Shown one piece after another: positions 1-64,000 of a stretch of 64,000 bases of DNA. The notes under the pieces are model-generated. The model had not been told where the DNA came from and did no database searches. It was given only the letters and a program-made list of their open reading frames with translations. Source of the stretch: Asterochloris sp. CNOR1 (lineage: Eukaryota; Chlorophyta; Trebouxiophyceae; Trebouxiales; Trebouxiaceae); assembly GCA_963969365.1 (NCBI GenBank), contig OZ017760.1, forward strand, positions 1,426,001 through 1,490,000. Direction: 5' to 3'. The stretch's first letter is position 1; each line of letters starts with the position of its first letter. The translations under genes and the position numbers were made by a program.

Positions 1-2868
1 GAGGAACCATTGGTCGTCCTGCAGTGAGCAAGAAGCTGCCTGACCAGGGCGCTGCCTCTGCATCGTCATGTGCCTGGCAATGAGCATGAATGCAGGGTGC
101 TGTGCATGACCCCCATGAAGGCTGCTACCTGCTGCTGAAGTGCCAGGACAAGCTGCCTGCACAGGACGCTGATGGAGAACCACCAGCAAGAGAGTGAGAA
201 GCAAGCTGCCATCCAGGCTCCAGTCAGGCAGGCAAGACTGGCGCATATGAGGACGGCCAGCGCAGAGAGGCGGAGCCCAGCATGAGCATCATCCAGGCTC
301 TGTGTGCAGCTGGCCTTGCCTGCACCGTCTCACTCACATCACACAAGCCATGAACTGCTGCTTGCTCTGGACAGCAGATTGCAGGTGTGCCCTGTGCACA
401 CAAGTCACAACCTCACTGACACCACACAAGGCATGAGCTGCTGCTTGCTGTGGACAGCAGACAGCAGGTGCAGCATGCAGCACTGAAAGCAAACCTTGGT
501 GAGCTTGAAGCCCAAGGTCCAGGCCAGGACAGCCAACGCCACCACATTAGTGATCCTCACACAGATTATGGTAGCCTGCAGAACACGGCAGTAGTCAGCA
601 TGGGCAACCCTTGCTCTTGTCACAGTGTGCATTGCTGACGTGCTGGTTCCATGACAAATAGAACTTGGAAGATGTTTTGACTGGTTTCAGAAGTACCTCC
701 AAAACGCAACAGCCTTAGCAGCAGGATTTAGTACTGAGGCAGCAGCGGCTCACCTTTGCTTGCCGCTCCCGCACAAACTCTGCTCTGAGTACGACATCCT
801 GCACAATGGGGGCAGCTGTTTCACACACAAGGCAAAACTGAGAAGCGTGTACTAGAATACTCCACTGTCAGCGGCCTCCTACGTAAGACAGACCTGCGCC
901 CCAGCAGCTGGCACAGGGCCACCCATTGAGGGGCGCAATGATATGCAGCAGCTGACAATGGTCCAGGCTGTACAGACGCTTAAGGATACAAGCACAGCCA
1001 GACCGGCCCACCTGCACAGGATCGTAGTGCCCTGTTCTGGTGAAGCCTGGTTGCTTCTGCTCCCCGCCTGCTGCTGAGGCACAGCTGTCCGTCCTTTGGT
1101 GCCCATCGATCTGGGCGGTGTGGTGATGATGGGGGTGGTGCGGAGTGTACCCTCCATCATCAAAAGCATACTCAGCATCGGCGTCGCCGCTGCTGCTGTC
1201 GGGATCGCCTGACTGTGACTGCAGGGGAAGTCAGGCGAGAAGGTCAGATACAACATTGTGTGGAGCCAGGCGCAGCAGCACGGGTGAGTCGCCCTCAGAA
1301 CGATACACAAGCAGACCCTCAGCCCAGGGTTGGATCAGCCCAGCCACTGTGGTGCCATCTGACAGAGGCCATCTGTCAGAGGTCGCTGCGAAGGGAAAGC
1401 ATGCGTTGCATCACGACGTCATTGCTTTTGGTGCAGCAGATGCCTGCACTTGCATGCCCTGTGCAATGTTGAGTTCCCCACTGCTCAAGGTGCGCAAATG
1501 GCCTGACAACTGGTCTCAAAGCCCAAGTGCTAAGCCCTGCTCCATGGTGAGCCTTGCAGGCTGTCTTTGGAGCCCAAATGGTACCATGGCACGCCTGCCA
1601 GATATCACAACCAGAGTGACCCTATGTCCCCTCAGCATGTCATGCTGCTGCTCCTCAGTGCCAAAGCAGCTCTGTTCGGCACACGCCATACCTTACAACG
1701 CCCATGTGTGCATAGCTTTGGTGAGCGCTCTAGTTGCTCAGGGCAAGACATCAAGCCTGGCGACCAGGTCACACTCTGCCACTGTGGCCCAGTGGCAAGG
1801 CCTTAACCTGCTGCTACTCCCTGACAAGTCAGGCAGAGGTGGTCTACTGGCTGCATAGCACTGCCAGGTCTGGCCCTTCTCTAGTGATCAGCGAATTATC
1901 CAGCTGCTGCCCATGGTCCCTGCCGCGCTGCTGGGTGAAAGTCTTACCTCCAAGTAGACACAGCAGGCCTGCTGCATCTGATGCCAAGGCGCCAAACTGT
2001 GATAGGTGTCTATTGTCAATGGGACGCAGCAAGACTGCCAGATACCTCCACCCTGAGAGCTTACCTCACTGCTTTGCCCAGTAGTGAGCACATCGTCCTG
2101 TTTCTCCTCGTCCTGGCGCTGTTCCCTGCGGCTGCTGCGCTGCTCTTCGTCGTCCGAGCGCCGCTCACCGGCTCTGCCTGCGCCTGAGGCGTCCGACGGT
2201 CCAGCCTGCTGCTGGCGCAGCCTCCTGGAGCCGCCTCGGAAGCCGTCCAGGGCGGCTGCAAGCCGCGAACTGCCGCCTGACAGCCCTGATGGCTCCCTGC
2301 GTGGCCTCCTGCTGCTCCTGGTGGTCCCTGAGGCGGCTGAGAGCCCCGACTGTCCCTTTCGCAACCCCGCCTCCAGCCCGCGAGCCACCAGCTCGGCCCG
2401 GGGATTGCCAAAGGTCAGCTGCTGCGGGTGCTGGATTGGGCCCTGCTGGTGACCTGTTCCATGAGCTCCCCCACAGCCATGCTCCTCAGCTGAGCTCTGC
2501 TCCTCCTCATCGACGGGATCTTGGCCTAGCCAGCCCTCATCAGTCTCAGAATCTCCATGCTCCCGGTCGAAGGTGGCCGGCTCTTTGTCAGTGCAGGCCT
2601 GCTCCCCATCAGGAGGCGTCTGCTGCCCTGCTGTGATGGAGCCGCCAGCAGTGCTGCTGCCGGCTGTGCCTGCCTCCAAGTCCCCGCCGGTGCCTGCACG
2701 GGCAAATACGTCAGAGTCAACCAATGGCCTGCAGAGGGAGCTGCCAGCACTGCTGCTACTGGCTGTGCCTGCCTCTGGGTCTCTATGACTGGCTGCGGAT
2801 GATGTCGTTTGCGCATACAGTGCTCCATGCCCCCACAAATCATGCCGTGCGACGATGGGGACAAGCAT
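1..2868 (-). CDS. Unidentified multi-pass membrane protein with long disordered N-terminus (3' end off window)
   Basis: I do not recognise this protein. Exons inferred by eye, all joined in phase 0, are 2868-2065 (ATG at 2868, 268 codons, Gly/Ser/Ala-rich with acidic and Arg-rich patches), 1218-1012 (acidic start, then a His-rich stretch), 798-754 (reads DVVLRAEFVRERQAK), 575-495 (a membrane segment containing VVALAVLAW), 299-129 (57 codons, two strongly hydrophobic stretches such as LSALAVLICASLACL) and a start at 18 that runs off the left edge. A possible 7-codon exon at 1969-1949 (ACCVYLE) also keeps phase. The layout is a cytosolic low-complexity region of about 350 residues followed by at least three membrane segments. 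The start codon is uncertain because no family alignment supports it; an upstream exon could exist. The unbroken phase-0 chain is the main evidence that this is one real gene. Confidence 0.45.
335..475. repeat. Two-copy direct repeat of about 75 bp in an intron of the membrane-protein gene
   Basis: The segment around 339-400 recurs at about 413-474. Both contain ACACAAG, then CATGA with CTGCTGCTTGCT, then TGGACAGCAGA and a final GCAGGTG. The copies differ at scattered positions. They lie between the exons at 495-575 and 129-299 and resemble the exon-edge copies seen in other introns here. Confidence 0.6.
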
Positions 2869-4367: not shown

Positions 4368-7300
4368 TCAGCGAATCAGGCAACGCATCATGCTGCCCAC
4401 TGCAGAATCATTGACAGAGCTCTGCGACTTGGGCCCAGGGAATACATTCCAGAAGCGCAGGGTCTCATCTCCTGCAAGTGCCACACCTTGATGTCAATGG
4501 CAGTCATGCAGCAGCACAAAACGATTCCAGACGACAGAGCTGTGTAACGCCGAGCACCAGAACGTCACAGCACCATGAAAGCCAGCATCAAACCTGTCCA
4601 GCAATCAAGGTGAGTCAAACTCAGCATGCAGACTGTTGCTACCCCAATATGGCAGCTCAATGCAGGGCCCCTCAAAACAGCACCAGCTGCTGTCACAGTG
4701 GTCCCCCTGACACTGGCAGGTGTGGCACGTTGAAGGTGTGCACCGTCAACGTAGCTGTGCCCAGTCCAAGTGCCACAACCCAACTGCTCTCAGCACCCGG
4801 GCATAAGTACCAGCCCATGCCTAGCAGGTGCCTGGACCCCAGCATGATGCCCGCTTACCAGCCCCAGTCACAATGGTCTGTCCATCTGGCGACACCGCTA
4901 GGTACAGCACCCTGAAGGTGTGCCCTGTGAGGGTTGCCAGCTTGGTCATGGTGGGGTGCTTCCAGACAATGATCTGGTTTTGGCTGTACCCATGGGTGCT
5001 CACAATCTCATTTACGTTTTTTGACCAGGACAGGTTGCAGACCTGGCTGCCTGCAGGCAGCCAGAAGCAAATAGAGGTGCTGTGCGGTCAGCATACTGTA
5101 GGTGGCCATGGTCTGCTGGCCAAGGGCAGTGCAAAGCGACAGGTGAGTCATTCAAGCAGGAGAATTCTACTGAGGCCATGTGCAGAGCAGAATGCTGCAG
5201 GCAGCGAGGGCACAGGCTGTCACAGTCTAGGTTGTTACACGTCCTACATGCCATGATATAGCTCCCAGATCAGCTTCAGCTGCAAAAGGCATGCGCTGCA
5301 AGAGGTGTCAGGCAGTTTCTGCCTGCTTTCAGACAAAACTGTCATGGCAGCATCCCAGCAAAACGCGCTTGCCTCCAGGCTCCACACCCACGTCAATGCA
5401 GCCGGCAGACTCACCGGTGTCTATACAGCTGAGGGCAGTGTTGGTGGCAGTGTTCCAGAAGCGGATGCAGCGGTCGGCTGTGCCGCCGCCTGAGGCCAGG
5501 AGACCGTGCTGGTGGGGCGACCATGCAATGGCCTGCAACAGAGCACACCTTGCCATGTGGACACATGCGCAGCAGGCTGTTGGGTTCACAGCAGCACTAC
5601 GTCGATTCACAGACTGCTGCAGCCATGCAGCAGCAGCCAATGCTAATCACAAACAACCTTGGAAAAGGATGCAGGTGATGCAGCAAGCAGCTTGCACAGC
5701 AGGCCATGCATGCTGACCACCCACAGTAACAGGCAGCCTAGCCCACAGTTGACATCCATGTTCCAGCCTCGTTTCACCCAGCGGTAAGGTCCTCGACCTC
5801 AGCAAGTCAAAGGGTTCCAGGCATATAACCCCTGCTGTGGCCAACATAGTGCCTTGATTATCATCAGGCGCCGGACACTAGGCGCCATTCTGCCCCTGTC
5901 ACCTTAACATGCTCAATCACATTATTACAGCCAGAACTACCACCTTGACGGCTGCGCTGTGGTCGCTGAACTTGAGCAGGGGGGCCTGGCTGTTCAGGTT
6001 CCAGATGTACAGCTGGTTGTCGTTGCCACCGCTGGCCAGCTCCCGGTCATCAGGGGACCACTTGAGGCCACAAACCTGCAGGCACAGGAGGGGAGGTCTG
6101 TCTGCGTCTGATATGGTCAGTTTGCATCACCAGCCAGGTCGCCTGGGGACCACGTCGGCCGCAGACCTGCAGGGCCTGGAGGGTCAGACAGCAGGTGGTC
6201 TGCTCACCTGGCCAGTCCCAGTCAGCGTGGGAACACTTCAGCCACCAGGCCGGCAGGGCCGCAGCCACATCAGCATGCGGGCCCTGCTGCTGTGCTACAT
6301 GCCAGCAATGCAGAGCGCAGTGCCTGTGCACATGATGCCACCAGCTTGCTGGCGTGCACAGCGTCATGTCTCCATGAGGAGCCAAGCGTCAGAAGTCCAG
6401 CTTCTGTAGAGCTTGACAGGCAGAAAAAGCATATGCGGGGCACTCCGACTCACATGGCCATGCCTGAGGCAGACAGACATACATACAGCCACCGCCCATT
6501 GTGGACTGTGCATGCCACACGTTCAGACACACCAGCCCACCTCAGAGCGGTGCCCAGTGAACTTGTGCACATAATCCTCTCGCGCCCGCACATCGCGCTG
6601 CAGGATGCTCCGGTCCCGGCTACCGCTGGACAGGATGTGGCTGCTCCAAGACATGGTCCCCACGCGTGCCCGATGACCCTGAAGGAGGGAGCAGCTCTTT
6701 AGGGTTAGGTTCTTGCCATTCAGCTCGTTAGTTTGCACAGTGCTTGGCAGCAGCTCAGACCACACAGCGCAGAGGAGTCCTGAAGCCCTGACGCCTACTC
6801 CAGCACAGTGCACTACCCTGTACAAGAACACGTTTTCTAGAGTTGCAGACATGCGAGCCCAGCATCATGACAGGATGTGCTCCAGAACACAGTGCCCACC
6901 ATTGCACAGTGACCCTAAAGGAATGGGCTCAAAGCCTAGCAGTAGGCAACTTGTGCGAGGCACTGGATTGCAGCAGCACCAGCTGGGTGGCAGTCAGCAT
7001 TGACTCGGCAACGCTGCAGCAGCCCTGCTAGACCAAGCAAGCCTGTACAAGAAAGTGACCAGGAGTATTGAGTCAGGCTCCCTCATCCTGACACGTGCTG
7101 CTGCAAGTATCACATGGTAGGGCCCCCCAGGCATCAGCACCTGCATGATTGCGCCAGGGGTGTGACCATCTGTACTTGCGAATCACCCACAGCTGCGTGT
7201 CAGGCAGTTTGGCAGACACAACAGCAGGAGGGGCAGTCAACAGCTGCCAATATGCTATAGCACTGACTGCTTGATTGTCTGGTGATGATCACAGATGCTG

Positions 7301-10300
7301 CACCTAGTCCTGCTGCCTGCTCACCCCAAGCTTCCTCACCATCGGCATTTTGCATGTCCACAGCGCTGTTGTCTGACAGGCACCCTGAGCAGGCAGCTCC
7401 TGCACATCCTGCCCCCGCTGTAAATGCATCTGCCTGTGGCACTGCCCACCCATTGCAGGGTTCTTGACCATCAGCAGATGCACGTGCACAAAGCCCTTGC
7501 TGGATCCTGCACTCACCCCCAGGTTCCTGATCATCTTGACCTTGTGCGCATCCCATAGCTGCGTGTCCCCCTTGTTGGTGCCCACGCTGAGGTAGGTGCC
7601 TCGTTGACTCCACGACACGCTGCACACGGTGTCTGCAGGGTCCGTGCTGCTTAAGTCGCACAGCTTGGTCACCTGCAGCGCAGTGGGGCCATTGGTATCT
7701 CACAGTTGCATGCTGGCTGTGCACCAGCCAATAATGTTTGCCTCCAATAGGCCTGTGCAATTGAAACAGTACAGCTTGGTCGCCTGCAGTGCAGCGGGCC
7801 GGTAAGACACGTCACAGTATGCACTGCTGTCTCCACAACATGCTGTGTACCCTACTCTGCAGCTGTTCTGCTCAAGTTGCACTGCTGGGGTGCCCTGCCC
7901 TGCAGTGGGGCCACTTGGCATACAGTGCTCACTTCACTGACCATGCAGCACCAGTGAATGGTCTATGGCTGCACAGGGTTTGTGCTGCTCATTGAGGGCG
8001 CGGTTTTGAAGCTGGACGCAGGCAGACAGTGCAGTCGCAGGCCTCACAGCAGACTCCAGATCCCTGCAGCGCAGGGCAGCAGCAAGGGCGTGCAGTTGTG
8101 GTGGCCTCTGCCTATGCACCTGCTGCATTGCTCAGATTGATCATCTGCAGGGAAAGCTGCAAGTCTGCCAAGCTGCAGGGACTGCGAAAGCACGCCTTAC
8201 GACAATGCAATGTGCTGAAAGTCAATGGTGACCTGCTGTAGAGCTCCAAACCACATGGCAGACGCAGGAGTCATCCTTGCTGTCTGCACTAGCACTTGTA
8301 GTGCTGTCCCTCCTGGTGGAGGCTGCAGCAAGCAGGTCGGTGAACCCTGGATCAGTCCAGCCTTCTAACACATTCTCCTCACCTTGCTGGTGCAGGCTGA
8401 CCAGAGGTACACGCAGGGCCCCAGACCCACTGCCAGCATGTTCTGGCTGCTCCAATCCACCAAGTTAAGGTAGAAGTCGTCCTGTAGCGCTGGAGCATCC
8501 AGCACCTGCAGGAGGGCCGTCATCAGTGAAGCAGGAGTAACAGCACCAGCCATGGCCAGCATTGTATGCGAATTGCATATGGGCGCCCATGAGACCGCAG
8601 ATGCTCCCTACCTTACATAACTGCTTGGGGCCATCCAGACTCTTAGTTGGTCAAGTGTGAGAGTGCCGCTTGCTCATGAGCCCAGGCCCCCACTTAATTT
8701 ATCACACGCCCACTTAGCTCTGTCTAAGCTTTCTGCGCAAACCTCACCTTGGAGGGCGGGCGAGCAATGGCATCAGGTTCCCACTTGGTGTTGCACAGGC
8801 TCTTGTGCAGCATGCATGTTTAGCCAGCAACCCCACCTTGAACGGTGAGCGTGCAATGCGCATGGGGGCCCTTTTGGGGCTGCTCAGCGCCCCAGTCAAG
8901 GCGCTGTCGCGCCCCACAGGGGAGAGGCGGTAGGGAGAGTCTGTGCGGGGCCCAGCCCGTGGGCTCTCCTCGTCCCCCGTTGTGAAGCGAAACATCTTCT
9001 TGGTGCAAGGGCTGCAGGGGGCAGAAATGTCATTCTGGTCACATGTGTCTCAGGAGCCGAATGACAGGGGCGCCGCACAGAAAGCACCTGTCAGAGTACG
9101 TGTAAAGCGTTGAGTGTCAGTGCTGCCTGCTGCTGCATGTCTCGTGCACCAACAGGAGGCCCCAGGAACTGCACTCTCCTCAATCCCTGTCTTGAGCAAG
9201 ACGTCTACATGCTGCAATCTGCAGAGCAATGGTGCCTGACGTCTTGTGCTGCACGCCTTAGGTTCATGGCAGTAAAAATCAGACAGGCAGCCTGTGTGCA
9301 GCCTCATCAGTCTTGTTGCCAGCTCGTAACCTGATCGAATCACTCACAGAGTCATATGCACAGCATGGCTGGAATTCTGTATACAAGGCTGTCTCTTCCT
9401 GACCTGCCCGGCGACTTGAGGAGGTCGATGGCCCCGGTCCCATTGTTGGGTGGGCGGTCCATGGGGGATGTCATGGGGGAATTGGGGGCACTCGGCAGGC
9501 CCAGCAGCTCTGTGCGCAGCAGCTGCCCATAGGCAGCGCTGGCCTCCTCTTGACGCTCACGCCTGCACAAACAACCTGCAGCATGTGACAGGTGCAGCAC
9601 AGGGCAGGCGCAGCAGCTCTGTGCGCCGCAGGTGGCGATGACTGCGCTGGCCTCTCTGGGTAATCACAAGCTGCAGAACTCAGAACATGGAGCTGCCACT
9701 GCATGCCCGCTGCATGCCCACTGAAGCACTCTGCCGGACAAGTAAGGCTGCTGCTGTCGTATCCCACTGGTTACATATGGACTGCCGAGAGGATGCATTG
9801 CCGCCAGGCTGTGATGCTCATCAGCTGCACCCAGCAAAGCCTGGCAGAGCACCGCACAACCCTCGCAGCATGCAGCATCCTCAGCTAAGCCAAACATGCA
9901 GGAGTGCTCTACAAGGCCGGGCTGCTCATGCAGGTGTGTACGCCAGAAGCAGGCCAGGCTGCCATCAGCTGGCAGCTGCAGGATTATGGGATGCCGCCTG
10001 CCAGCTGCCAGCCAGGCTGTGGGGCACTGCTGGGCATCACAAGGGGACACTCACGGTTGCGCTGCAGCCTCCTCTGCTGCTGCATCCCGGTCCAGCACAG
10101 AGAAGTTGAGCCGTGCCGTGGCGCTCCGAGTGGGTATGAAGCGATCACTGTAGCTGATCTGCGCCTTGGGGCTCCTGCAGATGCACAGGCAACCAGTTTG
10201 AAGCACTTGAGCTGGGCATCAAGGTGCAAGAAGGGGCCTGCTGTGCTGTCCTGTCCTTGCATGGCAGGTAAACTCTCGCATTTACTGTGAGGCAAGGCCC

Positions 10301-11520
10301 TGGCAGCAGCACGACAAGGCAGGTTGGCAGCACAGGAACCCTGCAGCATTTTGCTTCTCAGCTGCGGCTGCACCTCATGAGGGCTTGCCAATGCCAATAA
10401 GCCTGTGCACACATGCAGAAGGCAGCCTATTGTTGGCGCGGCCTGCAGGCAAAGGCCTAGGGAATGGGCAGCCTGGTGGCCAGGCAGCTGCAGCATTGCA
10501 TCATGTTCACTCACAGAGCACGAGCCCCACCTGCAGCACATTCCATACTGGTGCAGGCCGCAGCGCTGCAAGCTGCGCCCTGCACCTCTCTTTGGCTGAG
10601 CCGCATGAGCTGCCATACCAACTTGGCATTATGGAGGCAGCCCACCTGTATGCCACATCTAGGAAGGGGCGGCCTGAAGGGGAGGCAGGACCAGCGCTGC
10701 GGTTTGCGCTGTCTGCACTGCTGTTGAGCAGTGAGGGAGTGGGAGGCTGCAGCATACCCGTCTTGCCTGCCCCTGTCAGCTGTGCCGCAGCCCCTCACCC
10801 CACAAGGGGTGGTGTGAAAAGCTGGGGAGTTTGTCCGCCAAGGCACGAGGCACTGCCTTGCACAGCCTTGGTGATCAGCCTGCATGGGGAAGCAGTTCTG
10901 CATCGTGCAAGCCTGCCGAGACGAGCAAGCTCTCTCTGAATTGAGTGCCAGAATGCAACTTTGTATCAGGTAGACAGGCATGTTGAACATGTTCCTTATT
11001 AACATAAGGCTTCAGAAGCCATCATACTGCACTGCACAAGCTTTACCCTGAGACCGAAATTGTTCAGCTCGGGCTGACACCTCGCTGCCAATGTTCCAAC
11101 AGTGCTTAAACGGAAGTCTAGCAGCAGAACGAGCGATGACTGCTGGAAGGACTGTCTGTCGAGGGGGCCTCAGTGTCACACTGAGTGCAACATGGGCAGT
11201 CAACCCTGCACCCCAAGAAGGATAGTGTGCTTCCAGCTGACCATATCAGCCCTCTGTTATTGCACGCCTGTGGTCCTTAGCAAGCTGCAGTCAGAGCATG
11301 ATCACTCCATGACAGCTTACGTCAGATTGTAACATCAGGAAAGTGGTTGTCTCTAAACTAAGGGTGAACCTGCATGAGCCAGCCGCTCGGGCACCTGTGG
11401 CGTACCACCTTGGCCTTGCCAAGTGAGCGCAAGCCCTTACCTGACTTCAGAGCAGGAGCGCCAGAGGGGAGATGGCGGCACTGCACTGCTGCTCTCATGG
11501 ATCTTGATGAGGTCAGCCAT
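4368..11520 (-). CDS. FZR: FZR/CCS52/Cdh1, WD40 activator of the anaphase-promoting complex
   Basis: This is the Cdh1-type co-activator that brings substrates to APC/C, drives exit from mitosis and, in plants, endoreduplication; it acts in the nucleus and cytoplasm. ATG at 11520 opens exon 1 (11520-11441), joined in matched phase to exon 2 (10174-10055) carrying the C-box DRFIPTR. Then come [15 protein letters not shown] (about 9570-9410), [12 protein letters not shown] (about 9010-8836), and WD40 exons reading [84 protein letters not shown] and [13 protein letters not shown]. The last exon gives [10 protein letters not shown] and ends in ...MMRCLIR before TGA at 4370-4368. The terminal Ile-Arg is the tail that docks on APC/C TPR subunits. 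Length looks normal, about 450 residues. The FRFTTGD and [10 protein letters not shown] blocks favour Cdh1 over Cdc20. Several introns carry copies of neighbouring exon edges. Confidence 0.94.
7176..7920. repeat. Exon-edge copies flanking a WD40 exon of FZR
   Basis: The exon lies between about 7675 and 7520 on the minus strand. Its donor side (7509-7566, containing CATAGCTGCGTGTC) is echoed at 7319-7375 and 7176-7212 (the latter with CACAGCTGCGTGTC). Its acceptor side (7659-7690, containing CAGCTTGGTCACCTGCAG) is echoed at 7769-7800 (CAGCTTGGTCGCCTGCAG) and more weakly at 7895-7920. Copies sit on the side of the exon they match. Confidence 0.7.
8741..8880. repeat. Donor-side exon-edge copy in an FZR intron
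   Basis: The end of the FRFTTGD exon with its donor (about 8830-8880, ACCTTGAACGGTGAGCG then TGCAATG on the plus strand) is echoed at about 8741-8795 (ACCTTGGAGGGCGGGCG then AGCAATG). The match spans roughly 45 bases with scattered differences. Confidence 0.65.
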
Positions 11521-26876: not shown

Positions 26877-26961
26877 TGCACATGTGAATGCAGCTGCATA
26901 AGCACAACAAAGTTGCAAACAATCCTAGCGTTGTTAGAACATGTCCAAATCCCAGGTAGTC

Positions 26962-53200: not shown

Positions 53201-54515
53201 AGGCAAGCGGGATACCTGGCACTAAGTGCTTCCTGTCAGGCCTTGCAGCATGTCCACCTGGTGCAGCCGGGGGCAATGTGTTGCACGTGGTCACAGGTGT
53301 CAGCCAGGGTCATGTCTGGTAACATTGTGACATATAAAGCCCATCAGCAAAAGGTGCAGCAGCCCGATAGCATGTCATGCAGCGCAGCCTGGCTGCTGTC
53401 CTGACTCTGCAGCTTCTTCTTGCGCATGCTGTGCCCAGGCGTCCCAGTCATGCATGTTAATAGGGGCCACCATTGCAAGGCTCATACATGTGTGCATACA
53501 TGACCCATATGACAGCATCAGGTCCCCTGCAGCTCGTCCACGCGTACGCTGCGCTGGGCCACCATGCGTGTGGGGCCCCCAACAAAGCATGCACACGGAG
53601 GCCACCAGTCTCCGCCACTGGAGCAACGAAATGGGGAAGGGCAGGGCAAGCTCAAAGAGCGCAGCGTGGACACTAAAAAGCTGCGCAAGGCCACTGTGGG
53701 CTGCAGTGACTTTCCCTCGAGAGAAAGTGAAGGTGAGTTTTGACAGTCGTACGGTAACTTTGAGGGCTGGAGAAGTACAGGCTACCGGATGGACACAGTA
53801 GCTTGACCCGACACGCCAGTCTGAGTTCCCCCAAGCCATTAGTCTGTTGTATTGCATTGAGAGTGGTGCGGGTTGTGGTCATTGAGACCTGACTGAGCAT
53901 GCGCAGCCCTGTCCCTCTCCAGACATGCTGAGCAGTCTACATCGGCCTGCTAAGATCACGAGCACTTTGCACCTAAGATATGCCTTCACGTGCAAGCAAT
54001 AATCTGTGGCTGCCCGGTATGATGGCCGTGTCAGGAGGCAAGGTCGCCTTGAGTCATGTGCTTTCTGCTCCACCCACACATCAGCTCATAGCTGCATGCA
54101 GGCTGCAGCAATTTGCGCATCAAGGCTTTGGCATGGTGCGCAGGCTGTGCAACAGGCTGGCACTGCCAGCCTCCCAGGCTAGCTTGAGGGGTGTTGCTTC
54201 ATTGCCTTCATGACCCTTCCAGAGTCTCTTAGAGCGCCTTCTGACTGCGTGCATACACCTGCAGGTTGGAGTGGGCTGCGCAACATGATGACCCTGCCAG
54301 GCTTCAAAGCCTCCAAAGCCAAGGAGGAGGAGCGCCAACCTGAGGACTCCAAGAGCTTTAGCATCGTGCTAGGTGGGGGGTCAGCAATCCACTTGGAGGT
54401 GCCACCGGGCGGAAATGGCAGGAGTCGTGATGAATGGGTGGCAGCATTCCAGGACCTGACTGATGACAGCTACAGCACCATTCTGCAAACAAACACTAGC
54501 GAACTCAAGGCATAG
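44299..54515 (+). CDS. Membrane-anchored SMP-C2-coiled-coil-PH protein (synaptotagmin-like lipid transfer/tether)
   Basis: It is probably an ER-anchored lipid-transfer or tethering protein of the plant SYT/NTMC2 and extended-synaptotagmin class. ATG at 44299 (first in-frame; a stop precedes it) gives a short head, then a membrane segment ([13 protein letters not shown] ... VLLAVIWWM). The SMP domain follows: [20 protein letters not shown], then [57 protein letters not shown] and [16 protein letters not shown]. The C2 domain spans [40 protein letters not shown] and [13 protein letters not shown]; its calcium-binding Asp pattern is not obvious. Coiled coils follow ([54 protein letters not shown]). 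The C-terminus is PH-like: [18 protein letters not shown] ... SFSIVLGGG ... [11 protein letters not shown], ending ELKA before TAG at 54513-54515. Exons between 49,750 and 52,440 are uncertain. Confidence 0.84.
44866..45130 (+). repeat. Acceptor-side copies of SMP exon 2 in intron 1
   Basis: Exon 2 starts after TTGCAG near 45221 with ATTGAAGACGGCTCTGCGGG then AGCAGAG. Similar sequence occurs at about 45111-45135 (TTTCAAGTCAGCTTTGCAGG then AGCAGGG) and more weakly at about 44868-44895 (CTCAAGGCTCTCTGCAGAAA). Each follows a GCAG or GCA. Confidence 0.6.
45457..45540 (+). repeat. Duplicate of the SMP exon 2 end with its own AG and GT
   Basis: The last 81 bases of exon 2 (45314-45396) recur here about 83% identical by eye. 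The copy follows TTGCAG and precedes GTGAAG, so both splice dinucleotides are kept. Its open frame reads [18 protein letters not shown] against [19 protein letters not shown] much weaker third copy lies near 45655-45745. Confidence 0.8.
45934..45996. repeat. Perfect 29-bp hairpin in an SMP-gene intron
   Basis: 45934-45962 is the exact reverse complement of 45968-45996, with a 5-base loop TGGCT. The arm contains CACGGCCTGCCAGACTGGCT. Pairing weakens abruptly outside this stem. It could be a small-RNA precursor or a young inverted duplication. Confidence 0.9.
46384..46624 (+). repeat. Three copies of an SMP exon end plus donor
   Basis: The exon end at 46384-46425 with following donor bases (GAGGCTGACATGGCTTTCCA ... 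CCAGTGTGTGGTGAG) is echoed at 46481-46534 (CAGGCTGACATGGCATTGCA ... CCAGTGCATAGTGAG) and 46575-46624 (CAGGCTGAATTGACATCTCA ... ACAGTGCATGGGAAG). Spacing is about 95 bases and similarity falls with distance from the exon. Confidence 0.85.
49714..50160 (+). repeat. Dispersed copies of a donor-side exon edge in the SMP gene
   Basis: AGACGTTTTCAGTCAGAACC then TGGAGGTGAGG at 49713-49743 is echoed at about 49938-49970 (AGACGTACTCAGTCTGAGCC then TGGAGTTGAGGTG) and near 50139-50160 (GCGCATCCAGTCCGAGCCTG). The second copy keeps the whole motif including the GT region. Confidence 0.7.
51731..51935 (+). repeat. Tandem 92-96 bp units ending at an acceptor
   Basis: GCCTGGCTGCAG or GCCTGGTTGCAG occurs at 51731, about 51827 and about 51919. 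The spacers share AGTGCATGCCTCTTGG, GCTGCTTCA or GCTGCTCCA, and GGCCCTGCTCTC. The last TGCAG is the likely acceptor of the coding exon that starts near 51931 (GCTGAGACCGATGC). Confidence 0.8.
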
Positions 54516-54785: not shown

Positions 54786-57700
54786 CTATTTCGATGGCTT
54801 CTTTCCCTGCTGAAGTGCTCTAGTCAGGTCTGCAAAACCATTCTGGTCCACTACGCCTGGTGGTGCTGTCACACGGTATCCATCAAGCGAGACTCCAACC
54901 CCGCTCTTGGTCAGCGCAAGGAACTCTGGCTGGCCCTGCAAGCAGGCATCACCTTAGCTGGAGCATAAGTGGCCCCAGTTAAAGCGGTCTTATGAATAAG
55001 CCATTGCAGGCAGTGCTGCAATGGCCACTGTGAGGTTGGTTGCAAATCATGCATCCCTCCATGTTGACCATGCAGGTCAACAACCACACATTGTGCACTG
55101 ACCGCCTCTTTTCACAGCAGCATGTGAGTGTATGCTGGGCCTACGCTATGGGGCTGCAGCACACCTGTTCGACCAGGGGCAGCCCAAGGATCCTGCCATA
55201 GAGTTGGCGGACATTCTTGGCAAACAGTGCTGCATCTTGCTTCTCTGCTGTGCTGGGCATGTACGGCTCCAGAATCTCCACATTGGCGGCATTCTCGAAC
55301 TGGCAGCAGACCCTCAGCTGCAGCACAAGCAGTGCATGCCTGTCAGCAGGCTGCTTTGCCCGTACATTTGTGCAGCTGGCAGCATTGTCTCAGGTGCAGC
55401 AGGCAGTGGACATGTGACCCCAAGACCTGCAGGCTACTGCCCTCTGGCCAGTGGCAGGCAAATGCCATGGACTCAAAGCATAGATGGATGTCAGAGACCA
55501 TAATCTGAGCAGTGCCCAAGCACCCAGATGTGGCAGGCCCATGGCGGCTGAGATGCTCTGACATGCAGCCCCTCAGCCATGGCCCAACAGCAGAACATTG
55601 GCACAAACCAAATATGTGCTATCTCTTTTGTGCAATAGCTGCCAACACTTCACAAGTATGCTTGGTGAGGTATGCAAAAGTAAATGAAACAAGGGATGCT
55701 TGTTGTGGAACAAGCATCCCTTCTGCATTCCTCATCGCAGGGCGCTCATGGGCACCAGCCTTCGTTAGTCAGTAATGATCACAGCAAGGCAGAGCCAGCA
55801 CCTGCCCTCACCTCTGCCGTGTACAGGAACTTGCAAATTGGAAGATGGCCCAGCCAGCAGCGTGCCAAAAAATCCCACAAAATCTGCTCAAGCACAGGCA
55901 CTCACAAAATGCCAGCCCTCATTTATGATGGTCCAGGCAGGGTTGTGGTGGCGCTTGTTGTACGTCAGCAGCACGGGGAGGATGGGCTGCCCCGGCACAA
56001 AAGCCCCCGTCTTGAACTGCAGGAGGCAGCGCCCATCGCCACAGGTGCCCTCAGGAGCCATTGCCAGCATGGGGTACCTTGCATCCCTGGACCTGCGGCA
56101 GCGAGGGACAGGCCCTTGCAACGGCAGAACTGCACCACTCAAGCTCACAGTGACAATGGCAGCAAGTGCTGCCCCACGTTCATGTTTTGCCCGTGGCCAG
56201 CATTACTGATGTCTTCAACCTGCAGCTGGTTTGTGTCCCTGTGTGATGCACAATGTGGCGTAAGACTGGCTCTGTGCATGCCACAAGTGCTGTCAGTGCG
56301 TCACAACATGTGCAGCTAAACCCCACTGCAACCCAACTAAGGCCCCAATCACCAGCTGCAGGCCCTCATGCCTCACTGCTCCGCACTCACCCATGTGAGA
56401 CCCCTGACTGCTGTTTCTCTGAGGGCCATTGTCAGTGACTCTGTCTGCTTACAGCAGTGCACAGCCACCTGGACTGCCTTGTCGGCAATGCTGGGACACA
56501 ACTTAGCAGCTGCACAAAGATCCTACACATCACACTCTCAGCAGACTGACTGTCCTGTCACAACAGCCCCTGCAAGCATATATCTCCTAACCTCAGCAAT
56601 CCGCTGGGAGACACTCACCATCCTGGGCATGTTTCAGGGCCAGCCTCTCCCTGATTGTGGTAGCTGAGTCACCTCAGCAGCATATCGCACCACCCCTCAC
56701 CTTCTGGCAATGCAGTAAGCTGCACATCCCCTGTCAGCCACACTCTTCCTCACCTTGTGGCAAGTAGGTGAGCTGCACATCCCGTGTCAGCCACACTCTC
56801 CCCGACACACATTGGCGTCTCACCTGTCAGCAGTCATCTGGGACACAACTGTGACCACTGCCAGTCCACCACTCGCAGCGTGCTCAGGAGCAGCACAACT
56901 TCGGTAGCAACGCAGATGATAAAAGAGATTAATTTGAGTCACCTTCCAACCAACCAACACCGGCCGCACAGCAACCAGCTGGAGTCACCGTTTGTGTTGG
57001 CCCCACTTATGGCCCATCTCTGCCTGGAATTGGCAGTCCAGTTGTCTCAGTAGCATACCAGCCCATCAGCACTGGGTGATCAGCTGAGCTAAGCAGCCGC
57101 TGGCAATCATGAGCAGTGGGAACACAGGGCTCTCACCTCTCAGCAATCATCTGGGACACACCCTTTGTCTTGGCTCCATCTGTGACCAGCGTCTCCCCTG
57201 ACTTGAAGTCCTTGGCTGCCCTGTTGCGGTCGATGCTGCTGCGAGGGACGTAGATGTTTTGATAGGCCTTGATGCAGGTGCCCACCAGGGGGATGTCTGC
57301 ATTGTCGGCCTTGGACACACCTGAAGGGCAGCAAAACACATTGCAGAGGTACTGGTAAAAGAGCTAAGAAGCGGGGTGGCAGTGCCCAGAGAGCTGTCTA
57401 CACTGCTGTCCCTGGGGTGCAGCACAGGTCATGATAGTGTTCATAACAAACAACCTTTCCCCCTTGGTGCAGAATATGCCATGCCCTGCCTATCAGATGG
57501 GGTCCAGCGCACTGTGCAGTGCAGAGACTCGAGGCGGGGCTCACTGGCCCACCCACCAGGGGTCTATCTGAACTGTGCACTCTGCAGACACAGGCATTGC
57601 GCTTTGAAGCCAGTGAGAAAGTGGCGGTGGACGAGCTAGGAGACACCTGCAGGGTGACAGAGGTCATGCTGTAGCTTGTGCACCTGTGGCGGCAGGTAAT

Positions 57701-59582
57701 GAAGGCGACGATGGGTGAACCCAGCCTCTGCACAGGCTGTGGCAGCTGTGAAAAGCTGCAGAGCACGCAGGTACGGACAGGGCACATCGGCTGCATCTGT
57801 GGCCTGCATGAACGTCCATAGTTGCAGTAGCACCAGAGTGCTGCGGCATCTGGCAGCAAGAACAAAATGCTGACTTGGTGCTGAGATGGTGCTCTGCTGG
57901 CAGGGTCAGCTGCTGCAAGCCAGTTGCACATCTAAGTAGGTGAGATGGGTAGGGAGCAACAGTGCAAGGCTGCAGCGACATGTGGGGGTGTTAGTGCTGA
58001 GTTTGTGCCAGAGCAGGGGGCTGGTGCTGAGACCCACCTGAGGGGGCAAAGAGCCACATGATGAGCATTGCGTCGACCCAGGAGCTGTGGTTGAACGTGC
58101 AGATCTGCAGCCAGGGCACCAGGTTCAGCTCTGTTTGCTGGGCTGCGGAGCCAAGGGACCCATCAGAGGGGCCACTTGGCGCTGCCACAAGGGGCAACAG
58201 GCGCCACTTGGGTTGTACAGCAAGAAATAGGGATGTGCTGCTTGGCAGCACAGGCCCAGACTGTCTCGACAAGCTGCAGCAGTACATACAGACACAGGCC
58301 AGAAAAGTGAGACCGGTTAGCTGTACCAGCCATTGAATAGCACCAGCATGGTGGTCATTCACAAGGACCCATCCACTCAGAAAGTTGCCAGACCACAGTC
58401 TCAAAAACTGCCACTCCCAGCAGCTGCTCTGCAGGGGGTAGCAGGACAGCACTCACAGCTCCGAGCTTCTCTGCCCTGGCAAAGTTCTGGTACCCTCGGA
58501 CGCGAATCCTGAACCCCAGCAGCAACACCAAAAGGCCAGCACAGTGCCTGCAGGGGATGCACCAGAGTCGAGTGCAGAGCATATGAGCTCTGGCCAGCTG
58601 CCTCCCACCACTTGCCTTCTGGCAGGCAGGCAAAGGGCTTCGCACTGCCTGACAGCAGTACTGCCTACGACTGCTTGCTGCACTCCGTGCACAGTCGCCA
58701 CAGCAGGATTGGGTGGCGGTCCGAAGTCAGGTGGCAATGGCAGAAATGGCAGGTTGTGTATATTGCAGCTGGCAGCTACCTGCTTGCCTTCACAATAGCA
58801 CGGCGCTGCGGTGTCAGAGGCTTGTCCTTGGGCCTGCAGCTAGCATGCTTCATCAACACAAAGGCAGCCCGGTAGGCTCATTCATACAAGTCAGAAAGGC
58901 CACACCGCAGGATCAAAACAGTAGGTTGCTGGCGTGCTGCCTGTCCAAGTGCAGGAGACATGGCCAGCAGGCCCTGAAATGTACACCAGCGGAGTTGGCA
59001 GGCTGCTGCTGCGCTGCCAACTGGGTCCCGAAGAGGCAGCACAGTCAGGTGTCTTCAGGACCCATTTGGATGCAAAGCAATACTGTGTCTTGCAGCAAGT
59101 AATGGAGGTTGTGGCCGTCTGCCTGCGGGGACTCACCAATTGAAAGCCGCCATATAGTTCATGAGCGCCAGCACGATCAGCACAATCAGTGCCAGCAGGA
59201 GGCGGGGAGGCACAGTCCAGACGAGCAGCGCCATTTTGACCTTCTCCCTGCATCATTGGCGCCTTGCAGAAGACATCTTGGACTGCTAATGCACAGCACC
59301 AACCTTCATGCAAGCCATCGGTATTGCCACTACAGGCAAGTGATTGCAGCCCGCTATAGCCGTGATCAATAAGGCATCCCAGTCCCAAAACCATGCCACC
59401 AGCAATGTCTGCAGGTCTAAGCAGTAAGAACTGGACCTCCAATCAATCAGGCAGTGGCAAAGTGCATTGCACAGTGGCATCAAAGATCACCTGGTGGTGA
59501 ATGGGGTGCGCAACTCCAGGAACGGGGACTTGTTGGTGTCATATCGGGCCCAAGCAGCCTTGTCTGCCGCACTGATCTCCAT
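54786..59582 (-). CDS. LPEAT: Lysophosphatidylethanolamine-type acyltransferase (LPEAT/LPCAT family)
   Basis: It moves an acyl group from acyl-CoA to lysophospholipids, in plants mainly lysoPE, in the ER membrane. Exon 1 (59582-59491) starts MEISAADKAAWARYDTNKSP and joins in phase to exon 2 (59247-59137), REKVKMALLVWTVPPRLLL plus a membrane segment, then exon 3 (about 58549-58458), AGLLVLLLGFRIRVRGYQNF. The catalytic HX4D motif appears as FNHSSWVDAMLIMWL (about 58110-58035). Next come ADIPLVGTCIKAYQNIYVPR (about 57320-57135), and LAMAPEGTCGDGRCLLQFK with the PEGT motif and TGAFVPGQPILPVLLTYN (about 56095-55905). EILEPYMPSTAEKQD ... NVRQLYGRILGLPLVEQ matches the plant LPEAT end. A final exon starts GQPEFLALTKSGVGV and ends QQGKKPSK before TAG at 54788-54786. 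I saw no EF-hand. Whether it is LPEAT1- or LPEAT2-like cannot be told here. Confidence 0.9.
55691..55722. repeat. Perfect 14-bp hairpin in an LPEAT intron
   Basis: AAGGGATGCTTGTT and AACAAGCATCCCTT flank a 4-base loop GTGG. Confidence 0.9.
56584..57160. repeat. Exon-edge copies and a 53-bp tandem repeat in an LPEAT intron
   Basis: The donor side of the IPLVGT exon (plus strand 57131-57160, CACCTCTCAGCAATCATCTG then GGACAC) is echoed at 56820-56846 (CACCTGTCAGCAGTCATCTG then GGACAC) and about 56589-56618 (AACCTCAGCAATCCGCTGGG). Between them a 53-bp unit starting CACCTT.TGGCAA occurs twice, at 56698 and 56751, sharing AGCTGCACATCCC and TGTCAGCCACACTCT. Confidence 0.75.
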
Positions 59583-60389
59583 TTTGACAGTGGGGAAGGC
59601 CAGCTATCATATAGGGGCACCTGCTCTTCTTCGTAGAGCAGCAGCTTGTCGCCTCGACTGTTTGTGTCTTTGAAACCCAATCTCAATACGCACCTCCCTG
59701 CAAAGGAGGCGTACTTGCCCATGAGAGGCAAGACTCGTTCACATCCAAGCAGTAATTGCCAGCAACCCGTTTCCATTGCAAAAGCAAAGTTGTATGTTAC
59801 TGGGCCAATCCTTGGCCATTCAGGGGCTCAAAGGTTACCAGCGGCCTTTGCCTGCACTGCATGCCTCACAACAGCTATTTGGGGCATATGCAGCTGCACA
59901 GACATCTGCCCTTGAGTGAAAGACCAAGGCTGACTTTGCTGCTATAGAAAGGCTGCTCATGCTTCTTGGCCACAGACAGCTCACAAGCGCCCTCAGGGAA
60001 GTGACTGACCGGGGCTACCTGCGCTGCCATAAGTGCCAATGGCGGGTTCATTCAGAGGCCCAAGCTGCCAGCATTATTGGGTCTGGTACAAGGTGCAGTG
60101 ACCTGTTACTGGAACAGCTCTAGGGCTGTGTTTAGCTTGAGTGAACATGATTGTGCCACAGTTCTATTTGATGGGATTCACAAAGATTAGCAAGCATGCA
60201 CACTTCCCAGGTGATGGTGCCATTCAGAAAGCTGGCATGCTTATTGAAAATCAAACCAATCTGGCAGCCACATCTGCAGCATGATTTGAAGGCTGTCGTC
60301 TGCCAGAATCACTCTACCTGCCGTAGCTCTGGGTACAGCATCCATTCTTTTTGTCATCTCGCAATGCCAAACTGCTTTGTGTGGGCTTC
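59583..60389. other. Upstream region of LPEAT
   Basis: About 800 bp lie between the LPEAT start and the stop of the next minus-strand gene, so it should hold the LPEAT promoter and the 3' end of the coiled-coil gene. Short open frames are present, none recognisable. Confidence 0.5.
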
Positions 60390-63300
60390 CTATCTATTGT
60401 GGGGGCTCAATGGGCTGACAGTGTCTGTCAGAGGCAGCAACACCTGCAGACAACACATCAATTTTACAGAACTGAAGGCAGCAAAGGGCAGGAGTACAGT
60501 AGGGCTGCACATCAGGCAGCATGTCACACATGTCACAGTGCTGATGCTGCCCACCTGCAACCTGGGGGTCTTGCTGGGCTGGCTGCTGTTCTCAGACAGG
60601 TCCGCTGCAACTGTGTTGCCTGGCTCTGATGCTGCCAATCCGGCAGGCACATTGCCTGGGCTCAGCGAGTGGGCTGCGCCCACTGGCCTCTGCGCAGGTG
60701 GAGAGGGGCAGGCCTGGATGCTCTGACGCAGCCTGTACGGCATGAGAAAGGCTGAGTGGTTGCCAAGCAGCGACTGCACTGGCTGCAGTTGCAGAGCCTG
60801 AGTCATTCATATATGTCTACAGCAATGCCATGATGTTGCTCAGCTGCCGCAGCAAGGACCAGGGCCAGCCACGAGTCGATCCCCGCATCTGCCTGCTGGC
60901 ACAGGAAGGTAGATCCTGGCGGACTGCTGCCCCATCATACGGGGAGCAGCATACCATTTTGCATCAAGCAGCATCACTCTACAGCAGTGACCTGGCTCCA
61001 ACAGCAACATGCAACACAAACACTGCGGGCCCACCCTGCAGCAGTGGCCTGCCCTGGCGCCTTGCCCCTCGCACTTGTCGGCAGCGTTCGGGCCCAGCTG
61101 ACCAGGGAGTCAATCTCGCTGAATGCCCGCTTGTAGCGCATACTCTTGGCAGCCTCGTGTTGCAGATCTGTCCTGGCCTCCTCCAGCGCCACCTCCTTCT
61201 CTGCAACCACCTGCAGTGTGCATAAGAGCACTCCGCAACGATCGCAGCGCATGTGGGGTCAGAGCTGCAGCAAGCTAGGCCAGGGAGCAGGGCTGTGAGA
61301 GCCAGCTGCAGCACCCAATAAGAGTTCTAGACACTCCAGAAGACTGACACATATGGGGGGTCTCTGTGCAGCACGGGAGCAGATCTGCCATGGCCTCCTG
61401 CGACAGTTGTCCTCCTTGCAAAAATCAGCGAGGACACTCTGGTGCAGGTTTGCGGCACACTGCAGCGTTTGTCATGCCTCTTGGGCAGCCTAACTTTGTC
61501 CTCTGGTTTCCTGCAGCATCTGCTCTCTATTTGCAAACAGCACAATGCCACGACACCTTCATGGCATGCCCGTCACAGGCTTGATCAGCAAACCTTTCCT
61601 CTGTCGCCCTGCAGCACTCAATGCTTTGCCACCACCTGCAACACACAGTCTGCCACTAGCTGCAGCACATCTATTGGCAGTTGTGATAAGCAGGCCGTTC
61701 TGGCTGCTGTTCATGTGCCTCTACCTGCAGCATGTGCAGTGCAGCGGTGAGCAGGCCTGCCTGCAGTGCAGTGCAGCGGTGAGCAGGCCTGCCTGCAGTG
61801 CAGTGCAGCGGTGAGCAGGCCTGCCTGCAGTGCAGCGAGCAGGGCTTCATTGGTGGCTCCTGGCCGGCAGCCACAAGCATGCCTACAAGCAGTAAGCTGC
61901 CCTGCTCTCAACTCCTGCTGGGCCTTGTCAATCTTGAGTTACCAGCAGGGCTCCAGCAGCCAGCAAGCCAGCAGACTGCCTGTGCTGATTGTCTGTGCTG
62001 GCAGCTTGCTCTGGCTACCGATTGCTGGACTGTCTTTTGCCTGCGCCTGCGTCTGATCTCAGGTCAATGCATCAGGCAACAAGACTCACATCTTCAAGCT
62101 TCTGGGCAGTTGCGGCATGCCGCCTCGCTTGATGTGCAGCCTTGGCAGTAGCCTCTGCCAGGGCCTTGGTCAGCTGGCAAACCTCCAGTGCCTGCTGCCG
62201 GGAGCGCTGCTGCTCCCTTGTGAGAGCCTCTTGGGCGTGGCTTAACTTCTGCAGGCAGCAGTGTTGGCTTGTGCACACAGGTTAGCATGCCTGTGCTGCC
62301 CAATGGCTGCTGCTAGGAGCGCTGCTGCCACTCTGCAAGAGTGCGGCTCTCCTCTGCCTGCACTCCTCATTGCCTGGGGCCTGTTCCGCAGCATACATAA
62401 CACCCTTTGTCACGCACTTACTGCATTGACAGGCTGCTGTACTTGCGCTGCATACAGGCCCCCGAGTGCCAATTCTTGTTCGGCCAACATGCCTGACCAA
62501 GCATACACAGCACCACAGCCTAAAGGGCTGTCTATGTGCCACAGACGCCCTGTCAGGACTAGCATGCTGCATGTAACTGACCAGAACCCTGACTTCTGCC
62601 AGCTCAGCAGCACTGTCTGCCTCCTGGGCTTCCCTGAGGCTTTTTCAGCTGCATGGGGATTGCAGCACAAACAGCTGTCCTGCATCCAACATTGAGCTTG
62701 CAGAACCGGCTTCACCGCCCCCGGCCGCTGTCTCCTCCTGTGCTGTCCTGCGGCTTTGTGCATCAATCCCATCTGCAGCACTGCTCAGGCCTGAGGCCAT
62801 TGCCTGCTCCTGTGCTAGCCTGAGGCCTTTTGCAGCTACACAATTGGCAGCACTGCCTAAATCACATCCCAACCCCCTCACTGCCTCCTTTGCTGCCTTA
62901 AAGTCCTGCACCCACTATATCAGCAGCACTGCCCAGCCTCACCGCTCTAAGGCAGTCGCCTGCCTCCTGCGCTGCCTTGAGGCCCTTTGCAGCGTCCAAG
63001 CCGTCCTGCTGCGCCTGCACTTGGGCCTGCCGGAGGTCAACCTCCAGCTGGCGGCTACCAGCCTCCAGCTGCAGGCTGTGCTCCTTGCTGTGCAGGCACT
63101 CGCTACGGACCTGGTGCAGCTCCTGTAGGCACAAGCATGGGTGTGTCAGGACAGCCTGAGAGATGCACCGTCGTAGAAATTGCAACACCGCCAGCCTGCA
63201 GGGATGTGCGGATCTGCCTCCCACAGCACACTGTCCTTGCATTTGCTGGCTTCCTGGTCATTTACGCAAGCCGTACAGCTACAGACAAACTGTGTGGCTG

Positions 63301-64000
63301 CGGTAGCTGACCCTGTGCATACCCCACAATTCTCAGATTGCTGCTACAATTATGAATGTCTTGCCTCCTGAAGCGCCTTGATCCTGCACGTGCTGCTCGC
63401 CCTCTCACTTGCTGCCTCATTTCTGGCAGTTCTCAGCTGCTCCTGTACAGCTGCCAGGGCATCTTCTAACCGCTGCATCTCGGCAGCCAGGTGGCTGCTC
63501 CCCTCCTGGCTGGCTTCGAGCGCCTGCTGCAGCTGGTCAACTTGCTGCAGAGCAGAGCACACATACAGGGTCGAGGCATCTGTCAGGGTGCTGCGGGGCA
63601 TCAGACAAATGCTGGCAAACCTTGACTGTCTGCTGTGCAGGGCACAAATTAAGTGCCACTGCTTTGGTGCTACTAGGCGGCTGCCTTCCTCCTGGCTGGT
63701 CTCCTGCTGTGTCCAATGAGCTTGCAGCACAGGCTACCAGTTGTGAAGGCATTTGCCAATTTGCTTCAGGCCATGACCCAGGTTCTGAGAAGGGTGGTAA
63801 GTTCGTGCTTGTTCAACAAGAAACCCTGCTGTGTGATAACAATGCTGCCTTGCTGCAGGGCCGAGTGCACTTCTGCGTGCTGTTCTGTCACATAAGCAAT
63901 CTGAGGGTCTGGCCTGATGCCGGCTGCCAAGGACAGATGTGCGGCTGACACAAGCGCCTGCTCAGGGCAGCCAGCGGGCCAACCTGGGTTTCTGCTGGGC
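60390..64000 (-). CDS. Coiled-coil protein of unknown function (5' end off window)
   Basis: I do not recognise a family. Exons with matched phases are 63544-63365 (QVDQLQQALEASQEGSSHLA ..., 60 codons), about 63126-62945 (ELHQVRSECLHSKEHSLQLE ... AGDCLRA), about 62250-62088 (KLSHAQEALTREQQRSRQQA ...), 61210-61035 (VVAEKEVALEEARTDLQHEA ... RAFSEIDSLVSWARTLP), 60732-60554 (LRQSIQACPSPP ..., Ser/Pro/Ala-rich) and 60443-60390 (VLLPLTDTVSPLSPHNR, then TAG). The first four form long heptad-rich coils; the last two look disordered. A possible further exon lies near 63951-63790. The 63544-63365 exon ends GGAG|GCAAG, which looks like a GC-AG intron. Such proteins are often cytoskeletal or centrosomal, but nothing here proves it. 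Confidence 0.6.
61734..61846. repeat. 32-bp minisatellite in an intron of the coiled-coil gene
   Basis: Unit GCAGCGGTGAGCAGGCCTGC plus CTGCAGTGCAGT repeats about three and a half times and is almost perfect. Each unit holds a donor-like GGTGAG and an acceptor-like CTGCAG on the plus strand, although the host gene lies on the minus strand. Confidence 0.9.
62730..63000. repeat. Degenerate exon-edge copies in the coiled-coil gene
   Basis: The donor side of the ELHQVRSE exon (plus strand about 62945-62995, CTGCCTCCTGCGCTGCCTTG then AGGCCCTTTGCAG) is echoed at about 62878-62905 (CACTGCCTCCTTTGCTGCCT), about 62800-62835 (TGCTAGCCTGAGGCCTTTTG then CAGC) and more weakly near 62730-62790. Each is preceded by a GCAGCACTGC-type motif. 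Confidence 0.7.

Follow-up and report, generated by a model that had tools for sequence, protein, structure and literature searches.

Introduction

Tandem duplication is an established source of new introns. A review lists 188 intron-gain events of this kind together with an in vivo demonstration (PMC3443670), and single cases have been worked out (PMC4974935, PMC2891723). As far as the portions of these papers considered here describe them, exon sequence was tandemly duplicated in ATP2A1, leaving the protein unchanged and the copy inside an intron (PMC4974935, PMC3443670); in a potato RdRp gene the duplication runs over an intron-exon boundary, carrying splice signals with it (PMC4974935); and in fission yeast genes an intron extends across several tandem copies of a 24-bp exonic repeat (PMC4974935). 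Among green algae, the core-Reinhardtinia have conspicuously long introns without the usual 60-110 bp length peak, and the advantage and cause of these long introns are stated as unknown in the part of the work considered (PMC8226300). Here we describe a 64,000-nucleotide stretch of the green alga Asterochloris sp. CNOR1 (assembly GCA_963969365.1, contig OZ017760.1, positions 1,426,001 to 1,490,000; hereafter the window, with coordinates counted from its first base) in which introns hold diverged copies of the exon ends beside them.

The window differs from each of these systems. In ATP2A1 the duplication creates the intron, whereas here we see no signature of intron birth, and most of the duplicated units extend across a junction that was already there. 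The potato gene is a single case with a new intron; here many introns carry old copies, sometimes several of them, with no sign that the intron is new. The fission yeast introns are new, occur in two genes and involve short exonic units, in contrast to the units of ~80-117 bp with intron flank found here in 32 of 69 introns. The core-Reinhardtinia account, in the sections considered, covers intron length and conservation and leaves exon-edge duplication unmentioned (PMC8226300), and the corresponding sections of the Coccomyxa genome paper do not mention such copies (PMC3446292). Among the titles and beginnings of abstracts listed from the openly licensed literature we found no description of systematic exon-edge or junction copies in introns.

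Results

Introns hold diverged copies of the adjacent exon ends

Comparison of introns with the exon ends that flank them identified 62 copies at E<0.05, located on 40 of 138 exon edges (6.2 expected) in 32 of 69 introns. At E<0.005 there were matches on 31 of the 138 edges and in 26 of the 69 introns, and 15 edges retained a match at 1e-4. The E-values were fitted on 7,980 wrong-gene comparisons, and at most four copies per edge were sought. An initial annotation of the window had claimed that introns contain diverged copies of adjacent exon ends and had named six genes as examples, and both points were borne out: at E<0.05, copies were present in 8/9 introns of FZR, 7/12 of RNF10, 7/14 of eIF(iso)4G (eIF4G below), 6/16 of the SMP-domain gene, 2/3 of LPEAT and 2/8 of the coiled-coil gene. 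Three further models had no copies (DapF, 0/4 introns; RWD, 0/2; UP1, 0/1).

The introns were taken from gene models made by a simple exon-chain gene finder, self-trained on the 64-kb window with a heavier intron cost and run without RNA evidence. A first run, which over-predicted (480 exons), was discarded, and merged models that crossed gene boundaries were split by hand, giving 9 genes with 76 introns of median length 408 bp; the window is intron-rich and eukaryotic. Introns that were short or had a weak flanking exon were left out, 5 of the 76 in the test with exon-only queries and 7 of the 76 in the E-value test. A Pfam check of the products returned CDC20/Fizzy WD40, MIF4G plus MA3, diaminopimelate epimerase, SMP-domain, acyltransferase and RWD/Prp3_C proteins, while none of the RNF10-like, coiled-coil and UP1 models had a Pfam match at E<0.001. 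RNF10, LPEAT, eIF(iso)4G and coiled-coil are names given by the initial annotation. The chain nearest to the epimerase model (DapF) is named a chloroplastic epimerase. Protein searches with the FZR and eIF4G models in viral contigs, and with LPEAT in prokaryote genome contigs, returned no relative.

A small self-trained gene finder used without RNA evidence, three of whose models lack a Pfam match, could in principle produce such a pattern as an artefact of the models, or the pattern could reflect shared composition and splice consensus. The controls make this highly implausible. Queries restricted to exon sequence scored at p<0.05 against other genes' edges in 18/71 introns on the donor side and 14/71 on the acceptor side (~3.6 expected for each), and wrong-gene, same-gene, wrong-end and reverse-complement controls all gave background (reverse-complement mean z of 0.13 and 0.08 for the donor and acceptor sides of the 71 introns). 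At E<0.005 the own edge was matched in 23 of 129 comparisons. The same cut-off gave background for introns of other genes (1/645), for edges of neighboring introns (1/218), for other edges of the same gene (2/1109), for the intron at the opposite end of the same exon (0/56) and for reverse complements (0/129, with 6/129 at E<0.05). Similarity to the own exon was thus well above that to random exons. Self-comparison of the window, which makes no use of gene models, likewise found direct repeats in excess of expectation at short range only; beyond 1 kb there were no direct repeats at a score of at least 22 and one at 20 or more, and one and five inverted repeats at the same two thresholds. The coding repeat near 38800-39760 was excluded from the lag and pair counts. 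In addition, the section of the FZR protein encoded across introns 4-9 could be aligned, free of inserted blocks, with a PDB chain of known structure named fizzy-related protein homolog (7.2e-142). Sequence sharing among introns of different genes, as in introner-type mobile introns, was not seen within the window. The exon-edge copies are real and widespread within the window.

Copies lie beside their own exon and mostly span the splice junction

The copies showed a strong preference for one side of the intron. The half next to the matching exon edge held 58 of the 62 copies, and in introns of at least 600 bp the near half had a match at E<0.005 in 13/38 cases versus 0/38 for the far half. 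The splice junction itself was spanned by 46 of the 62 copies, and 26 entered the intron flank by at least 15 nt. Edges with copies had from one to four of them, fifteen edges having two to four.

The lags, or offsets between copy and exon, of the 41 strong copies were distributed over 87-117 bp (14 copies), 157-236 bp (17) and 255-554 bp (9), with a single copy, at 143 bp, in the interval 118-156. Lags modulo 3 of 0, 1 and 2 occurred 11, 13 and 17 times, indicating that the reading frame is ignored. At the eight edges with a first lag below 130 bp and a further copy, the spacing to the following copy was close to the first lag (median difference of 6.5 bp; p 0.0045 by permutation), as expected of a tandem array. 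With moderate confidence only, we take the duplicated unit to be roughly constant within one intron and to vary between introns.

Copies are associated with longer, probably pre-existing introns

The initial annotation connected the copies with the route of intron gain in which an exon segment bearing AGGT is tandemly duplicated. Birth of introns by this route is established elsewhere, in the sections considered of two reports (PMC4974935, PMC3443670), and the splice sites of the gene models here are AG|GT-like. However, when the start of each intron was compared with the start of the downstream exon, and its end with the end of the upstream exon, resemblance was at background (2/138 at p<0.01 with 1.4 expected, 3/138 at p<0.05; mean 14.49 vs control 14.46), so that intron heads and tails are unlike the exon ends in question and birth by AGGT duplication is scarcely credible as the origin of these copies. 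Most copies, furthermore, span an existing junction, which implies that the intron was already present. Tandem duplication of exon-edge segments was therefore the right kind of event to propose, and it is widespread in the window, but the AGGT type of intron gain was not supported.

Introns with copies were longer than those without (median 578 vs 308 bp, p 3e-6). The share of introns with a copy rose from 1/13 below 250 bp to 4/17 at 250-399 bp, 13/20 at 400-599 bp and 14/19 at 600 bp or more, a trend to which the greater room for detection in longer introns may contribute. The stretches from junction to farthest copy made up 22% of the tested intron sequence, and recognizable copies 9% (E<0.01). 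These data are best read as growth of pre-existing introns rather than gain.

We consider it likely, although by no means certain, that pre-existing introns were lengthened by old local tandem duplication, which is now seen via the conserved exon edges. Local tandem duplication of segments of ~80-117 bp, and of about double that size, would lengthen introns that already exist, and would probably act on non-coding DNA generally. Where the duplicated unit covers a splice junction, the outermost site would still be spliced, so the protein would be unchanged, and the inner copies would turn into intron sequence and decay. Duplications at junctions would then be readable longest because selection holds the exon half, while duplications internal to an intron would decay on both sides.

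Copies are old and show no decay with distance from the exon

Exonic identity of the copies averaged 0.761 with a standard deviation of 0.054, close to the 0.060 from sampling alone, and a maximum of 0.872 (38 copies with at least 25 exonic columns). This figure omits 3 of the 41 strong copies, which have fewer than 25 exonic columns and include an LPEAT copy of 0.92 identity over 39 nt, and the lower end of the distribution is truncated by detection. The uniform divergence (~24%) suggests that most copies come from one past period rather than from a steady process.

A continuing stepwise process, in which each new copy is placed beside the exon and age rises with distance, would account for the 58 of 62 copies on the expected side and for runs of up to four copies in a row, and the initial annotation had reported that similarity usually falls with distance from the exon. 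We found no such fall. Lag and identity were uncorrelated (rho -0.15, p 0.38; 38 copies). Of 27 pairs of copies of the same edge, not all of them independent, 13 had the nearer copy more similar to the exon and 12 the farther one, with 2 tied. A steady process should also leave young copies, and few copies have high identity (the maximum of 0.872 among the 38, and two short ones at 0.92). Continuing stepwise lengthening is accordingly quite improbable. In 22 of the 27 pairs the mutual likeness of the two copies was below the likeness of either to the exon, as expected if the exon is a slow-changing hub.

Some features of the copies could be taken to indicate function, for instance as decoy or alternative splice sites or as alternative exon ends under selection: among copies at E<0.01 the donor GT was intact in 11/20 and the acceptor AG in 17/25, and the intron-side flank was more alike than the exon side. 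The retention of the dinucleotides is, however, about that expected from the per-base identity of 76-79%. Mismatches occurred at every codon position (0.230, 0.214 and 0.280 for the first, second and third; copies at E<0.01), so that protein-level constraint, sought through codon positions, was not found, and the lags are blind to frame. The copies look like dead sequence, and a function for them is very improbable.

Concentration at exon edges can be explained by conservation of the exon half

Matches at E<0.005 were most frequent in junction windows (31/124), compared with the 100 nt at either end of introns (10/124), interior tiles (17/359) and tiles outside genes (1/97). Taken at face value, this ranking suggests amplification targeted to junctions, that is, duplications that prefer boundaries, arising for example by breakage coupled to chromatin, transcription or splicing, with introns as dead arrays seeded on exon edges. 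The self-comparison points the same way (score of at least 18, ankyrin array aside), with 30 exon-involving pairs in gene models versus 4 independent intron-intron pairs.

We simulated duplications of equal age placed evenly over introns, with divergences matching the identity seen in the copies and with exons assumed to change at one quarter of the intron rate. In the simulation the detected fraction was 0.49-0.92 for junctions, compared with 0.03-0.29 for interiors (observed, 31/124 and 17/359). Under that assumed rate, conservation of the exon half alone yields such a ratio: the exon half remains recognizable over a longer time, and no targeting is required to account for the concentration at exon edges. 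In the self-comparison, 6 intron-intron pairs had exon-edge copies as both members, against the 27 copy pairs compared above, suggesting that such pairs seldom remain visible. In this model a general duplication process would suffice and targeting would be unneeded. Junction-targeted amplification is thus an unlikely explanation. A narrower version, in which a single past wave of junction-targeting amplification laid down units of ~80-117 bp and left in each such intron a fossil of the adjoining exon edge that can be dated, is distinctly unlikely.

Copies in individual genes

The FZR/CDH1-like WD40 gene (4859-10755, minus strand; 10 exons, 9 introns tested; Pfam WD40_CDC20-Fz, 1.8e-121) contained several examples, all on the same strand as the gene. 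The copy in intron 2 (9603-9693) comprises the acceptor junction and the start of exon 9404-9562, spanning the junction at a lag of 111 (E 1.2e-8, 79% over 87 nt), and the one in intron 4 (8740-8794) repeats the end of exon 8837-9011 together with the donor GT (lag 89, E 2.7e-4, 76%). Two successive copies of the start of exon 7517-7672 occupy 7750-7926 in intron 5 (7750-7823 and 7828-7926; lags 113 and 220; E 1.7e-4 and 4.8e-8), both with AG. Intron 6 has a donor-side copy at 7294-7373 that extends 40 nt into the intron flank (lag 194, E 5.4e-4). Intron 7 again has two successive copies, of the start of exon 5944-6075, within 6130-6257 (6130-6183 and 6188-6257; lags 91 and 175; E 5.6e-5 and 7.9e-6).

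The RNF10-like gene found by the gene finder (15346-23917, plus strand; 12 introns tested) carries copies on both sides of its introns, likewise on the gene strand. In intron 1, two acceptor-side copies of exon 16597-16788 lie within 16031-16266 (16031-16087 and 16220-16266; lags 554 and 366; E 5.7e-4 and 4.0e-3), with AG in both. The copy at 17634-17718 in intron 4 takes in the end of exon 17267-17500 together with 30 intronic nt and keeps the donor GT (lag 196, E 4.6e-7); in the alignment, the segment at lag 98 likewise retains GAGGTGGG. On the donor side of intron 5, the end of exon 18006-18347 is repeated four times within 18393-18717 (lags 92, 170, 255 and 353; E 9.5e-9, 1.6e-2, 8.7e-4 and 1.6e-2), the alignment being patchy past the first. 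Exon 22093-22298 is represented on both of its sides, by an acceptor-side copy in intron 10 (21968-22043, lag 89, E 5.6e-5) and a donor-side copy in intron 11 (22462-22524, lag 220, E 1.2e-4). Two donor-side copies of exon 22832-22945 were found in intron 12 within 23013-23181 (23013-23070 and 23141-23181; lags 117 and 228; E 2.0e-4 and 1.1e-4).

In the eIF(iso)4G-like gene (27590-38199, minus strand; Pfam MIF4G 3e-47 and MA3 1.2e-11; 14 introns tested), intron 5 has an acceptor-side copy of exon 33537-33728 at 33857-33959, made up of 70 exonic and 34 intronic nt (minus strand, lag 197, E 1.6e-13). A more decayed copy lies between it and the exon at a lag of ~98, and the self-comparison gave a 97-bp pair at 63% and a 198-bp pair at 77%. 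Intron 13 carries, also on the minus strand, a donor-side copy of exon 29144-29321 at 29015-29103 (lag 87, E 3.9e-6) and three acceptor-side copies within 28452-28707 (lags 198, 285 and 366; E 1.9e-2, 3.7e-2 and 3.7e-3).

The SMP-domain gene (45223-54515, plus strand; 16 introns tested) matched Pfam MMM1 (1.4e-6) and, just under the cut-off of that family, SMP_MUG190-like (1.8e-8). Its plus-strand copies include a donor-side copy of exon 45223-45397 in intron 1 that has lost the GT (45453-45550, lag 143, E 6.3e-14, 81% over 97 nt), three donor-side copies of exon 46227-46424 in intron 2 (46476-46716; lags 97, 192 and 253; E 2.1e-5, 4.3e-7 and 7.6e-3) and an acceptor-side copy of exon 49272-49404 in intron 8 (49134-49227, lag 101, E 5.0e-8). 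On the minus strand, intron 2 of the LPEAT-like acyltransferase gene (54786-58104; Pfam Acyltransferase 2.6e-16; 3 introns tested) has three donor-side copies of exon 57137-57320 within 56592-57044 (lags 182, 313 and 548; E 6.9e-5, 3.6e-5 and 1.8e-3), and intron 2 of the coiled-coil gene (58457-63601; from the gene finder; 8 introns tested) has four of exon 62943-63195 within 62610-62899 (lags 79, 157, 229 and 344; E 6.0e-3, 4.6e-6, 2.3e-4 and 2.3e-3).

Other repeats and base composition

An array of coding units of 81 bp, each encoding 27 residues, lies at 38874-39728 on the plus strand, with 84% matches in Tandem Repeats Finder for 39001-39586 and an in-frame stop inside. We take its units to be ankyrin-like from their motif. 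Its period and divergence are near those of the intron copies. Young, perfect short tandem repeats are present at 61734-61835, 34292-34340 and 17057-17090, with units of 32, 25 and 16 bp.

An imperfect palindrome of ~204 bp at 11806-12009, 79% identical to its own reverse complement, is perhaps a small mobile element. Further palindromes lie at 13514-13621 (108 bp, 76%) and, inside intron 1 of the SMP-domain gene, at 45934-45996 (63 bp, 95%).

The observed/expected ratio of CpG was 0.30 in introns versus 0.50 in exons and 0.36 in the whole window, with TpG and CpA in excess, suggesting cytosine methylation and deamination.

Discussion

The introns of this window contain diverged copies of their own exon edges, on the correct side and mostly across the splice junction, and we read them as the trace of old local tandem duplication that lengthened introns already in place. 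The copies themselves, their side, their extension across junctions, their lags, their uniform identity, and the lack of both distance decay and a birth signature are observed directly. A single duplication period would account for the uniform identity, the duplicates were probably retained neutrally, and the same process may operate beyond the window; these steps, like the mechanism of duplication itself, are what we infer from the copies.

Several results weigh against this reading. No copy was detected in 37 of the 69 introns, and the residual signal in these copy-free introns is at most faint (mean z 0.16, standard error 0.11, compared with 0.20 for the reverse complement and -0.10 for a truncated null). 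The evidence for a regular unit is uneven: the bimodality of the lags was spotted post hoc, a global lag period was sought and was not significant (p 0.34), a harmonic test with a free unit was marginal (p 0.044), and the rank correlation between first lag and next spacing at the same eight edges was 0.45 (p 0.27). Middle copies between double-length pairs are weak (mean z 0.69, standard error 0.39), with 2/18 reaching p<0.05 when compared with the exon, and some of the pairs may therefore have arisen by direct duplication of ~190 bp. Mismatch in the intron-side flank was 0.182, below that of the exon side, whereas a pair of flanks both evolving neutrally would be expected to diverge further; the splice consensus and effects at alignment ends may be responsible. 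Two short copies (39 and 26 nt), outside the 38 used for the identity figure, are at 0.92 identity. The flank result and these two copies slightly lowered our confidence. Finally, the scarcity of young copies is consistent with a past period of duplication, or could reflect collapse of near-identical repeats in the assembly.

Lengthening of introns is often attributed to transposons or left open. Lengthening by local tandem duplication remains, in our view, the likely account of these introns, and 26 of the 69 introns in this one window keep a strong record of such duplication (E<0.005). Exon edges provide a preserved reference that allows old duplications in neutral DNA to be recognized and roughly dated, and with that reference the question of how introns lengthen becomes testable in any genome with annotated introns.

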